From: Sphingobacteriaceae bacterium
Lineage (GTDB): Bacteria; Bacteroidota; Bacteroidia; B-17B0; Aurantibacillaceae
Direction: 5' to 3'
Assembly: GCA_002319075.1 (NCBI GenBank)
Contig: NVQB01000001.1
Location: 620,001-684,000, forward strand
DNA length: 64,000 bases
The translations under genes and the position numbers were made by a program. The notes under the pieces were generated by a model, which was given only the letters and a program-made list of their open reading frames with translations, was not told the origin of the DNA and ran no database searches. Below, piece after piece: positions 20,414-24,441 of this stretch (position 1 is the first letter of the stretch; every line of letters starts with the position of its first letter).

Positions 20414-21613
20414 TTAGGGCCGGACTATTATTTTTTGAATAAACTGTTTGTTTTCAGCGGAAACCCTTAAGCAGTATATACCAGGAATAAGATGGGAAGT
20501 TTGAAGGGTTGATGTATTGCTTATCGCTACAATCTTTCCTGAAATGTCTAACAATTCAAGAGCAACTGAGTCATTGATTCCAATAGTCAATTCCTCGCCT
20601 GCCTGTACAGGATTTGGGTAAACTAAATACGAACCTGAACTGGATTGCTCTTTTAACGAAGTAACAGTACTTTGATGAATCACACCGATGGCATCCAGAT
20701 CGAACCCACTTGAGGGAAATGGTGTGGGCCAGGGGTCATTTACTTTATTATGCTGAGCATCTCTGCTCGCATACGCAACGTTTATACTTCCTACAACATC
20801 AATCACTTTCACATGAGTAATTGCATTAATATTTAAACCCGCAATTCCTGAAAGCTCCTCAAGATCAAAAGGGCTGCCATAACCACCTCGGTATTTACCG
20901 GCTAGATTATTTATTTTTTTAGCATCTGTAGAACCAAAGCTCCCCGTTTGTAGGCTTGTATCTGTTAATGAGTGAGCTGGAAAGCGAAAAAAATTATTCC
21001 CGTCACTGCTTACTTCTACAAAAGCCAACTCCAGAAACACATCGTCAAATCCATTTTCAAAAATGGCAAAATCATAGCCTGGCCCATTAGTAATACGCTT
21101 ATTAAAAGTGCAAATAGCAGTGCCTCCATCGCCCAGACTAACGACTCCGTTACTTTGCGCTTTTCCTGTAGCCATGGTATTATCACCAACATTAGCGTAC
21201 CCTAAAGAAGTGTTCGAGATATCCTGGTAACCCCGTGTGACACTGCATGCCACGGCCCAATTTACAAACGCCGAACTATCCATATGAATAGCGCTTGTTC
21301 CTGCTTGCCCAACGGACGGCGCGTAAACTTGTCCATTCAAATGAAGCATGCAAAAAACACTCAGAAAACCAATAAGTAGTGTGATGATCGAAGACGTCGA
21401 TTTCAGGCTCTCCTTATTATACTCCTCTTTAAGCTCTTTCAGACAAGAGTTGCATAGGCACATCGTAAAGTGACTACTGATGTAAGAATATTCCTCTTTG
21501 CTTAAGCTTATTTTCGCGCAATCGCAGGCAGCAATATCATCTGGCCTGCATTCAAATTTTTGCGTACAACGTTCGCACGCTTCCGAATCTTTATGTAATG
21601 TTTCTGCTTTCAC
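20414..21613 (-). CDS. Cys-rich CWC domain fused to a T9SS type A secreted surface protein
   Basis: This 399-residue protein joins two parts. Residues 1-68 are a Cys-rich CWC domain (CERCTQKFECRPDD, ACDCAKISLSKEE, MCLCNSCLKELKEEYN), normally a free-standing cytoplasmic protein. Residues 75-98 form a signal-peptide-like helix (SSIITLLIGFLSVFCMLHLN). Residues 100-310 form a secreted domain with GYDFAIFENGFDDVFLE and WPTPFPSSGFDLDAIGVIH. Residues 325-399 form a T9SS type A sorting tail (YLVYPNPVQAGEEL ... LIPGIYCLRV). The start is GTG 21611-21613. A cobalamin riboswitch lies just upstream, so expression is likely shut down by B12 and the surface part may capture corrinoids. CWC genes are, as I recall, often near cobalamin genes. 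The fusion should be checked for a missed frameshift. Confidence 0.85.
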   Translation of the reverse strand: MKAETLHKDSEACERCTQKFECRPDDIAACDCAKISLSKEEYSYISSHFTMCLCNSCLKELKEEYNKESLKSTSSIITLLIGFLSVFCMLHLNGQVYAPSVGQAGTSAIHMDSSAFVNWAVACSVTRGYQDISNTSLGYANVGDNTMATGKAQSNGVVSLGDGGTAICTFNKRITNGPGYDFAIFENGFDDVFLELAFVEVSSDGNNFFRFPAHSLTDTSLQTGSFGSTDAKKINNLAGKYRGGYGSPFDLEELSGIAGLNINAITHVKVIDVVGSINVAYASRDAQHNKVNDPWPTPFPSSGFDLDAIGVIHQSTVTSLKEQSSSGSYLVYPNPVQAGEELTIGINDSVALELLDISGKIVAISNTSTLQTSHLIPGIYCLRVSAENKQFIQKIIVRP

Positions 21614-21696
21614 GTTTATTCAATTAAAGGAAATAAACGTTTACACGAGTCGTGCATCTGTTCCTTTTCCCGGGAGCATTTTGATGTATGATGAAT

Positions 21697-21814
21697 GGCA
21701 GATTTTCTGACTTACTTTAGTTGATTTTCCAGTCAACTAAAGATCACAGTTGCGGGTACAGTCAGGGTATTTCACCCTTATTCCCTTTTAATCTCTCTAA
21801 TAAGAGAACCTTTC
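21697..21814 (-). ncRNA. Cobalamin riboswitch aptamer
   Basis: On the minus strand the order of conserved blocks is that of the B12 aptamer. AAAGGTTC opens the aptamer, followed by a hairpin (TCTCTTATTAGAGAGA) and AAAAGGGAATAAGGGTGAAA. Then come the B12 box region ACTGTACCCGCAACTGTGA, a long stem (CTTTAGTTGA ... TCAACTAAAG), and AGTCAGAAAATCTGCC closing it. About 80 nt, including a CACG-ACT-CGTG hairpin near 21644-21654, separate the aptamer from the GTG start at 21613; this is the likely expression platform, probably acting on translation since no T-run follows. In Bacteroidota these switches turn off corrinoid uptake and B12 synthesis genes. Confidence 0.93.
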
Positions 21815-21899
21815 AACGCTGCAAATATAATCAAATTCGGAGAATCTAATTTTGATTTGGAAAATGAAAGGTCAGTAATAGGTAAGAAGTAATTCTCAG

Positions 21900-23015
21900 T
21901 TAATCTTTAATCCAACCGGCCAGAGTAAGCACTTCATCAGATTCTACACGCTCCCAGCCTTGTTTGGTAAAATTCCAAACCATAAGACCATCCTGGTAAC
22001 TGTCCATACCAATGATGAGTTCTTTCACAAAGGCAGCTGTATTATCACCGGCAGAAAAATTTCGGGTTTCAAAATGGTGCTTGCCTAAATCTTTTCCATT
22101 TAATTTAACAACCCTTCCTTTTGGATCAGTTTTAAATTCATAAGTAAACCCGTAATCGGATCTCGAGCAATCCATAAGACTAACTGTGTTAACCGCCAGA
22201 TCAATAAAAACCTGTTTATTTCCTAACCATAAAATCAGCTGATCTTTATTTAACTTCTTAAGCGTTGCAGGAAGCTTTTCTTTAGTGATGGCAATTTTTC
22301 CAATAAGTTTAACTTCTTTTGTATCGACATTCATTTTATGGATCATCAGTTCGGTATTGGCCTGATTGAAATACGCATAAATAAAATTATCGTTATCAAT
22401 CCAATACAGCGGCGGATCAGGAACAAAATTATCTTTGGTTCCGGTTTGCCCGTAACCTGCGTCGGCAGTAAGAATTATTTTAGGCTTGCCAACAGGATAA
22501 TAAATGATTTTAAAAGGAGCCGTAGTTTTATCAAACTCTATATCTCTTCCCGGACGAGGTTTAAAAAGGAGATCTTTCACCTCTTTGTATTGCTGATTCT
22601 TAAAATCATATACCGAATAAAATTTTCCTTTGAAAATATCATTGGTGTAAAAAATCGCGCTATCGTTGTTGCAGCGCACCAGGCTAGCTTTTCCGTCGAA
22701 CAAAACTTTTTTTTCTTTCAGGTCAAGAATATTTCCCATGCCTGTAATAAGATAGCGGTTGTTATAAATCTGGTTCGCGCCTCTGTCCGTTCGAATGTAA
22801 TCTTTGCCTTCTTTTTTTCCATCAAAGCTCATTACTTCATCCCTTCCGGTGAAACTTCCGTTTAAAAAATGATAAGCGAAAATCCTTTGTCTAAAAGCAG
22901 ATTTTCCCGATGCATCAACATGCACTACATAAAGACTTTGTCTTACATTTCCCTGTGAAAATAAGGCAATGGGCGTAAACAACAAGAAAAATATCAGTGT
23001 GATTATATTTTTCAT
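21900..23015 (-). CDS. Secreted protein of unknown function
   Basis: This 371-residue protein begins MKNIITLIFFLLFTPIALFS, a clear Sec signal peptide, at ATG 23013-23015 (a longer frame from TTG 23039 is less likely). The rest is rich in short beta strands with repeated pattern such as YNNRYLITGMGNILDL, FYTNDIFKGKFYSVYDF and PPLYWIDNDNFIYAYF. This suggests a beta-propeller-like fold, but I recognise no family. It starts one base after the pepA stop and is therefore co-transcribed with the aminopeptidase. No sorting tail or lipobox is visible, so it is probably periplasmic. Confidence 0.75.
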   Translation of the reverse strand: MKNIITLIFFLLFTPIALFSQGNVRQSLYVVHVDASGKSAFRQRIFAYHFLNGSFTGRDEVMSFDGKKEGKDYIRTDRGANQIYNNRYLITGMGNILDLKEKKVLFDGKASLVRCNNDSAIFYTNDIFKGKFYSVYDFKNQQYKEVKDLLFKPRPGRDIEFDKTTAPFKIIYYPVGKPKIILTADAGYGQTGTKDNFVPDPPLYWIDNDNFIYAYFNQANTELMIHKMNVDTKEVKLIGKIAITKEKLPATLKKLNKDQLILWLGNKQVFIDLAVNTVSLMDCSRSDYGFTYEFKTDPKGRVVKLNGKDLGKHHFETRNFSAGDNTAAFVKELIIGMDSYQDGLMVWNFTKQGWERVESDEVLTLAGWIKD

Positions 23016-23016
23016 T

Positions 23017-24441
23017 TTATAGATTTTTAAATAAATCAAAAAACAATCTTACTCCAACTCCCGTGCCACCTTTTGTTCTGTAAGCATCTTTTGCTGGAAT
23101 AAAGGCAGGACCCGCAATATCTAAATGGTAGTAAGGATAATCGGTAAACTTCTCAAGGAATTTCCCTGCGGTAATGGCACCACCCAAAGCGCCTCCCAGG
23201 TTTTTCTGATCCGCAATATCACTCTTCATAAGCTCTGCGTAATCATCCCAAAAAGGAAATTCCGCAATGCGTTCATGCACATTATAACTGCTTTCAGAAA
23301 TTTTACTTTTTTTATCAGCGCTCACATTTCCCATACCAACAATTCCGAAAGTTCCTATTGCGGCCATAGCGGCGCCGGTTAACGTGGCCACGTCAATTGC
23401 CATTTCTGGTTTATACCGTTTTGCATAATGTAACGCATCAGCTAATATCATGCGTCCTTCAGCATCAGAGTTCAGCATTTCTACGGTGCTACCATCCATC
23501 ATTGTAATAATATCTCCTGGTGCAAAAGCATTAAAACCCGGACGATTGTCTGTAGCGGGAACCAAAGCTATGACATGTACATTTAATTTTGCTTTTGCAA
23601 TGGCGAACATAGCAGCGCCTACCGCAGCTCCACCCGCCATATCACATTTCATCATGTCCATACTGTTAGGCGTTGGTTTTAAGCTCAAACCTCCTGTATC
23701 ATACACTACACCTTTTCCAACTAGTACATAGGGCTTTTTATTTTTTGCCTTCGCAGGCTTATACTCCATCACCGTAAACGTAGGTTCATCTACACTTCCG
23801 GCATTCACAGAAAGCAAGCCCCCCATTTTTAACTGTGTAATTTTTGATTTATTAAAAACATCAACCTTAAATCCAGCCTCCTTACCCATTTTTTTAAAGG
23901 CATTGGCAAGTCCGGTAGCATTCAAAATATTTACCGGCTCATTCACTAGATCGCGCGCCATTTTTGTGGCCTCGCAAACATAATTTAACTCGCTCACCAA
24001 AGAATCCTTAATAGCAGTATTCGCAATTATTATAGACTTAAGAGTATTGGGAGTTTTTACGCTTGGTTTATTTTTTATAAACTGATAATTCGAAAGCTCT
24101 GCGCCTTCAGCCGCTGCCAAAGATAAAAGTGGAAATGTTGTTTGATTGTAAATATAGAGTTCTGTTCCTTTATGTGCATTAACTCCATCCGCCACCGATG
24201 CCGCGTGTTTTCTTAATTGTTCATTCAGAGCATTTTTTTCTTTTTTTGGATCAATAATTAAAATTGAAACATACTTACCAATATAATTATAGGTCAGTGT
24301 TTTTTTCTCTTTGTCCTTAAATTCTGAAGTGAAATAATCGTTTACTTTGTCCGGAAGATTAAATTCGTTTTTAAATTTTTCCGTGATCACCAAAATGTGA
24401 GTAGGATTACTCACCTTGTTTCTTAAAATAATGTTAGCCAT
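23017..24441 (-). CDS. pepA: Leucyl aminopeptidase (M17 family)
   Basis: This two-metal aminopeptidase frees N-terminal residues from peptides in the cytoplasm. The C-terminal catalytic domain holds VGKGVVYDTGGLSLKP (metal ligands Lys and Asp), KCDMAGGAAV, and the signature NSDAEGRMILADALHYA with ligands Asp and Glu and the catalytic Arg. The N-terminal macro-like domain is weakly conserved, as usual. At 474 residues it is of normal length. It starts at ATG 24439-24441 and precedes the unknown secreted protein by one base. Confidence 0.96.
   Translation of the reverse strand: MANIILRNKVSNPTHILVITEKFKNEFNLPDKVNDYFTSEFKDKEKKTLTYNYIGKYVSILIIDPKKEKNALNEQLRKHAASVADGVNAHKGTELYIYNQTTFPLLSLAAAEGAELSNYQFIKNKPSVKTPNTLKSIIIANTAIKDSLVSELNYVCEATKMARDLVNEPVNILNATGLANAFKKMGKEAGFKVDVFNKSKITQLKMGGLLSVNAGSVDEPTFTVMEYKPAKAKNKKPYVLVGKGVVYDTGGLSLKPTPNSMDMMKCDMAGGAAVGAAMFAIAKAKLNVHVIALVPATDNRPGFNAFAPGDIITMMDGSTVEMLNSDAEGRMILADALHYAKRYKPEMAIDVATLTGAAMAAIGTFGIVGMGNVSADKKSKISESSYNVHERIAEFPFWDDYAELMKSDIADQKNLGGALGGAITAGKFLEKFTDYPYYHLDIAGPAFIPAKDAYRTKGGTGVGVRLFFDLFKNL

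Follow-up and report, generated by a model that had tools for sequence, protein, structure and literature searches.

The closest described counterparts of the protein considered here are the B12-binding BtuH proteins, known from gut Bacteroidetes and from three Firmicutes homologues, whose B12-binding domain is described, in the passages of the source used here, as having no known structural homologues (PMC8941943). According to the same passages, BtuH2 (BT_1956; PDB entry 7biz) contacts B12 through Gln333, Asn399, Phe401, His476, Tyr510, Trp511, Trp577 and Leu578, with Asn399 touching the B12 phosphate and Phe401 the lower ligand (PMC8941943). Proteins of the DUF4465 family (PF14717; BtuJ) have also been connected with B12 uptake. 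Excerpts of one report state that 38% of DUF4465 proteins carry C-terminal extracellular targeting motifs and give the names BtuJ, BtuK and BtuL along with cobamide-repressed promoters (PMC12751083), and an excerpt of another states that divergent DUF4465 members bind B12 and are located near B12 transport genes (PMC13398666). Among the matches listed from the open-access literature, no paper pairs BtuH with the type IX secretion system (T9SS), and the only match for a cobalamin riboswitch together with type IX secretion concerns, in the portion of its text that was retrieved, a TonB receptor.

In the window, which is the whole 64-kb stretch of DNA that was analyzed, a single open reading frame (ORF) behind a cobalamin riboswitch aptamer encodes a protein that can be compared with each of these systems (Table 1). 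Like BtuH, represented by BtuH2 and by the C-terminal domain of BtuG1 (BT_1490; 8blw), it has a core with the fold of the B12-binding domain and a short conserved block with equivalents of the B12-contacting Asn and Phe, and its family shares riboswitch-controlled btu loci and a predicted cell-surface destination. Unlike BtuH, which has a lipoprotein anchor, the window protein has a T9SS tail, a core shorter by about 50 residues and an N-terminal Cys_rich_CWC (CWC) domain fused to it, and it lacks PKD and propeller domains. DUF4465 proteins are extracellular, as is predicted for the core, often have C-terminal sorting tails, and are encoded in the same loci; PF14717 matches none of 81 cores (the window core and the best 80 of at least 494 relatives) at E ≤ 1. 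In contrast to other CWC proteins (PF14375), the CWC domain in the window, which scores above the family cut-off, is fused to a predicted exported protein. We consider it probable that this is a stand-alone B12-regulon gene, encoding a riboswitch-controlled, T9SS-exported surface cobamide catcher of the BtuH type that serves BtuB/BtuG.

Table 1. Features of the riboswitch-controlled locus, with positions in the window
Feature	Position	Strand	Evidence or remark
ORF: CWC, signal-like stretch, BtuH-like core, T9SS type A tail	20414..21613	-	399 aa, GTG start
Cys_rich_CWC PF14375, residues 13-59	21437..21577	-	hmmscan 33.6 bits, cut-off 24
Hydrophobic stretch IITLLIGFLSVFCML, residues 76-90	21344..21388	-	Kyte-Doolittle mean 2.73
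BtuH-like core domain, residues 95-320	20654..21331	-	AlphaFold2 model, VIA-align, hhalign
T9SS type A sorting domain, residues 331-398	20420..20623	-	TIGR04183 48.2 bits
Cobalamin riboswitch aptamer RF00174	21680..21828	-	cmscan 68.1 bits, E 1.1e-14
Predicted 10-bp hairpin, candidate expression platform	21612..21640	-	RNA fold of 21590-21679

A preliminary description of this DNA, made from its letters, had placed a full B12 aptamer directly upstream of the gene and proposed the Rfam cobalamin model as a check on the minus-strand region. When the whole 64-kb window was searched with cmscan at Rfam gathering scores, RF00174 was the single match. Its score was more than twice the gathering score of 31.5, model positions 1-189 were covered in full, and 66 nt separate the aptamer from the start of the ORF. 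The 3' arm of the hairpin predicted in this leader reaches into the GTG start codon, covering its first two bases, and the hairpin is possibly an expression platform; because the fold of the segment (minimum free energy, -16 kcal/mol) has a nonsignificant z of -1.3, this is a suggestion only. In line with the statement that neither a TonB receptor nor a B12 synthesis gene lies nearby, tblastn (E ≤ 1e-3) with BtuB, BtuG, DUF4465, Dph6 and CobO reference proteins returned nothing in the 64-kb window. The upstream neighbor on the same strand (21900-23039), TolB-like in appearance, is a conserved 379-aa protein with no Pfam match. Its synteny with the CWC and core genes is kept in nine near-relative loci (57 to 66% identity). 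Of these, L038 alone has the aptamer, and the idea that the neighbor belongs to the unit was therefore dropped.

The type A sorting tail was likewise recognized by two profiles, TIGR04183 (cut-off 23) and PF18962 (41.9 bits; cut-off 27), and the type A tail model was matched (E ≤ 0.01) by all 81 core-bearing proteins, that is, by the window protein and the best 80 of at least 494 relatives. The preliminary description had overlooked the CWC domain, which also scored 37.9 bits in a genome-wide search. This domain sits at the N terminus of the ORF, ahead of the hydrophobic export stretch IITLLIGFLSVFCML, which we interpret as the h-region of a putative signal peptide located within the protein. 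No Pfam family exceeded its cut-off in residues 95-320. The 81 cores had no Pfam family in common, with sporadic matches in at most 3 of the 81 members; one family was hit three times and every other family at most once. A lipoprotein family of NCBIfam, NF033170 (LIC_13355 family), was weakly matched by 53 of the 81 aligned members (best E, 3.4e-6), with the window protein under the family cut-off; a further lipoprotein branch of the core family is possible from these matches.

The AlphaFold2 model of the core, built from the 81-core alignment, had a pLDDT of 96.0 and a pTM of 0.93. VIA-align was run on the top 1,000 PDB chains from Foldseek, of which 985 could be aligned. The best match was the B12-binding domain of BtuH2 (7biz_B residues 318-593; Z 12.5, rmsd 3.0, 158 residues aligned), followed by the C-terminal BtuH domain of BtuG1 (8blw_B 392-660; Z 11.1, rmsd 3.9, 162 residues aligned). 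The rows below the two BtuH chains, with Z scores of 9.6 or less, were CBM32 chains and others of the jelly-roll or lectin type, and in the plain Foldseek ranking 7biz_B was fourth (E 1.6e-3), amid F5/8C, CBM and galactose-oxidase chains. The prominence of CBM32 and F5/8C chains in both lists is what would be expected of a carbohydrate-binding adhesin similar to CBM32 or F5/8 type C domains, with a jelly-roll merely shared with BtuH, that was recruited to the B12 regulon. We regard such an adhesin as improbable, since in the VIA-align comparison the two BtuH structures outrank all others and are aligned over more residues (158 and 162 compared to 119 to 145) and since the recurrent genes among the neighbors that were classified are those for B12 uptake.

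The link to BtuH was obtained through the fold and through Bacteroides operons; searches of PDB sequences with either the whole ORF or the 81-row core profile did not hit BtuH. Aligned with hhalign against four BtuH domains, the 81 cores gave a probability of 83 and an E value of 9.1e-6 over 49 columns, and with 11 further distant relatives added the probability was 95 and the E value 2.8e-8 over 50 columns; the sequence link is thus short but significant. Bacteroides btu loci were fetched through a BtuG search, and in two of them (L132 and L133, by Pfam) the BtuH protein adjoins a DUF4465 gene. In a set of 73 ORFs, the core profile matched the Bacteroides BtuH proteins of L133 (E 1.3e-7), which is closely related to 7biz, of L132 (6.3e-5) and of L135 (8.1e-4); the fourth locus, L134, had no BtuH-type match to the profile.

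The numbering of the B12 contacts was verified on L132, in which all eight published residues are present at their published positions. BtuH2 Asn399 aligns with N187 of the window protein, which is Asn in all 81 cores, and Phe401 aligns with F189, which is Phe in 75 of the 81 (the window and the best 80 of at least 494 relatives). Gln333 has, at best and judged by eye, an equivalent in 45 of 81. For the corrin-ring contacts His476, Tyr510, Trp511 and Trp577, and for Leu578, no equivalent could be placed in the core by sequence, the alignment being about 50 columns long. The fold match, the hhalign block and the N187/F189 pair make it likely that the core and the BtuH domain share common descent, and the core is a candidate B12 binder, with binding probable. 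Thus, the proposal that the secreted part is a candidate T9SS-exported counterpart of BtuG/BtuH is supported by the best-matching structures (7biz and 8blw), the riboswitch-led B12 loci of homologues and the tail-model matches in 81 of 81 proteins, and it is narrowed to BtuH, since the core is related to this protein and not to the propeller of BtuG.

Operon membership alone is not proof of binding, because BtuL, a lipoprotein encoded in a btu operon, bound no cobalamin according to excerpts of the report on it (PMC12751083). By analogy with what has been proposed for BtuL, the window protein could belong to the B12 regulon and act at the surface without binding B12 itself, assisting the receptor complex or vesicle release, and the fact that most BtuH2 corrin contacts are unplaceable in the core fits such a role. 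Nevertheless, the fold match falls on the B12-binding domain itself, the equivalents of Asn399 and Phe401 are conserved, and the ORF that by gene order appears to be in the place of BtuL (L133, 5950-8049) has no match to the core profile. We therefore think a nonbinding role rather unlikely.

Homologues of the core were surveyed for their gene neighborhoods, including linkage to riboswitches as suggested in the preliminary description. The linkage sample consisted of the best 80 of at least 494 relatives in the species-genome collection, ranked by core similarity and not by context, and the counts that follow refer to these 80 loci, which are not independent lineages. In 55 of the 80, a B12 box (two or fewer mismatches) was present on the same strand no more than 5 kb upstream, and elsewhere in the 1.02 Mb of the same loci the box occurred only once (L102, opposite strand). 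cmscan detected RF00174 in all 12 box-bearing loci tested of the 55 and in one (L081) of the 11 tested loci that lack a box, for a total of 56 of 80 loci with a box or aptamer (44 of the 53 whose upstream sequence extends over 5 kb or more). In searches with reference proteins, a BtuB-type receptor was found within 6 kb in 43 loci, a protein like the surface beta-propeller BtuG, whose fold differs from that of the core, in 45, and DUF4465 in 27; a Dph6-like gene lay within 6 kb of the core in 10 loci and a CWC gene in 12. At least one B12 marker, with CWC excluded, was detected in 67 of the 80 best-ranked loci and none in 13, of which 6 have more than 5 kb of upstream sequence. In 15 loci the riboswitch was present with BtuB, BtuG and DUF4465 absent within 6 kb, and the solitary arrangement of the window therefore recurs.

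Smaller samples had shorter flanks. Eight close core homologues (41 to 49% identity) and 12 more distant ones were examined with approximately 1.5 kb on each side. In L010, L011 and L012 the close homologue follows a BtuG-like gene, and in L010 and L012 it additionally follows the end of a BtuB-like gene; the other five close homologues had no B12 marker within these short flanks. In nine of the 12 distant loci, a B12 box or a gene resembling BtuB, BtuG or CobO was present, some with weak E values; L020 is the source of the CobO reference and L010 that of one BtuG reference, so the matches in those two loci are self-matches. In a sample of the phylum, 128 of 395 genomes had a match to the complete ORF, many via the common T9SS tail or CWC alone, and the core had no match in the plasmid collection.

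Two ORFs, L053:5946-7610 and L058:4315-6096, encode DUF4465 (PF14717; 161 and 174 bits) and the core in a single protein and sit behind an aptamer; these are natural fusions that join two distinct surface domains of B12 loci. In many loci, T9SS-tailed ORFs of 390 to 460 aa (L067:403-1695, L045:6559-7938 and similar) lie between the riboswitch and the core, in the position held elsewhere by DUF4465; the two examined had no Pfam domain besides the T9SS tail.

A broad T9SS-exported, BtuH-like family with a core outside Pfam, as predicted from the sequences and models, appears to be new. It would extend the BtuH fold to a large Pfam-less, T9SS-tailed family of Bacteroidota, mostly from metagenome-assembled genomes, two of which are labelled Chlorobiota, and would give hundreds of proteins that lack an assigned role a checkable candidate function.

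The genome from which the window comes (5.65 Mb) has three cobalamin riboswitches. The second heads an operon for a BtuB-like receptor, a T9SS-tailed DUF4465 protein and a BtuG-like propeller, and the third (L006:1327-2576; C1:2723327) precedes a Dph6-like gene (Diphthami_syn_2, PF01902). This btuB operon is without the core, which is encoded alone under its own riboswitch, and the DUF4465 protein, unlike the window protein, is a separate product of the btuB operon; in five loci of the same family (L181, L183, L185, L186 and L189) the order is BtuB, DUF4465, core, BtuG. One copy of the core and one of CWC were found in the genome. B12-binding domains were present at eight sites, six of them above the Pfam cut-off, and SprA of the T9SS apparatus was detected (SprA_N, PF14349; E 4.5e-155). 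The riboswitches, the btu operon, the B12-binding domains and SprA make it very likely that the cell uses and scavenges B12 and possesses an export route.

The aptamer, the tail, SprA, the BtuH-like fold and the repeated occurrence of the family beside B12 uptake genes are the computed basis for the function proposed here, from which we infer repression by cobamide, surface display, B12 binding and hand-over to BtuB/BtuG. At low intracellular cobamide the riboswitch would permit expression, and the C-terminal part of the protein would be exported through Sec and then through the type IX secretion system, with the type A tail anchoring it on the cell surface. There, the BtuH-type domain would capture cobamides and hand them to the BtuB/BtuG receptor made from the separate riboswitch-controlled operon of the same genome. 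The N-terminal CWC domain would be expected to remain cytosolic, attached to the membrane through the signal peptide.

The in-frame fusion of CWC and core is new and was found in three genomes: in the window, in L038 (74% core identity) and in L174 (same genus). CWC and core are encoded by separate genes whose first-start ORFs overlap by at least 8 nt in L039 and L175 to L180, with L039 and L180 indistinguishable in the core tree. In L148 and L162, of the same genus, the aptamer (112.1 and 102.5 bits) comes first, a separate, nonoverlapping CWC gene second and the core third, so the order aptamer-CWC-core is a genus-level arrangement and the fusion is a further step. In a tree of 100 cores, the rows with CWC beside the core grouped together (support 95/94), and the fused rows lay near this group without being resolved as a clade; the bootstrap had not converged. 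The window, L038, L148 and L162 have the aptamer; it was not found in L174 (fused) or in L039 and L175 to L180 (CWC beside core), and riboswitch control was thus gained or lost among close relatives.

The occurrence of CWC and core as separate genes, overlapping (L039, L175 to L180) or not (L148, L162), would be expected if two proteins were made from the window as well, with translation of CWC beginning at the GTG, that of the surface protein at an internal start codon, and the fusion of the ORFs incidental. However, none of the three fused ORFs has an ATG, GTG or TTG after the final cysteine of CWC and before the hydrophobic stretch, so only a nonstandard start could serve, and the fusion is retained in three genomes. 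Between CWC and core the fused ORFs do contain the near-cognate codons CTG, ATT and ATC, and we consider separate initiation of the two proteins unlikely but worth keeping in mind. Equally tentative is an elaboration of the single exported cobamide catcher, in which the ORF encodes a precursor of two products, synthesized only under cobamide scarcity: the surface catcher, delivered by the T9SS, and a CWC domain that the signal peptide keeps at the cytosolic face of the inner membrane and that might handle the incoming cobamide or its metal. If this were true, CWC proteins would be an unrecognized intracellular part of bacterial cobamide uptake and salvage.

All eight PF14375 cysteines are present in the window protein; among 12 aligned sequences seven are invariant and one nearly so. 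The structure model of the CWC domain was weak (pLDDT 76) and had no Foldseek match in the PDB at E ≤ 10. Of 295 genomes, 54 had a CWC match, and 30 CWC loci from these were examined with flanks of about 1.5 kb. An upstream B12 box was present in 3 of the 30 (L148, L152 and L162), all confirmed by cmscan, and two of the three also carry the core; nine other CWC loci all lacked such a box upstream. Riboswitches are therefore seldom neighbors of CWC genes in general. In L152, an aptamer (1716-1921, 98.3 bits) is directly ahead of CWC (1492-1644), both on the minus strand, with the core absent from this short locus, and here CWC is itself the first gene of a B12-regulon member. Elsewhere, CWC adjoins the core or ends a btu operon. 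A corrinoid gene cluster of Sulfurospirillum also includes a CWC protein, SMUL_1567, according to an excerpt of the source (PMC7755780). This linkage of the CWC family to B12 loci makes its role testable.

Small PF14375-like CWC genes were also observed near the core, in varied positions, in L042, L047, L048, L054, L062, L072, L079, L082, L084 and L086. In L047, CWC lies near the core with none of the other B12 markers. Some of these small CWC genes encode a second cysteine-rich segment at the C terminus.
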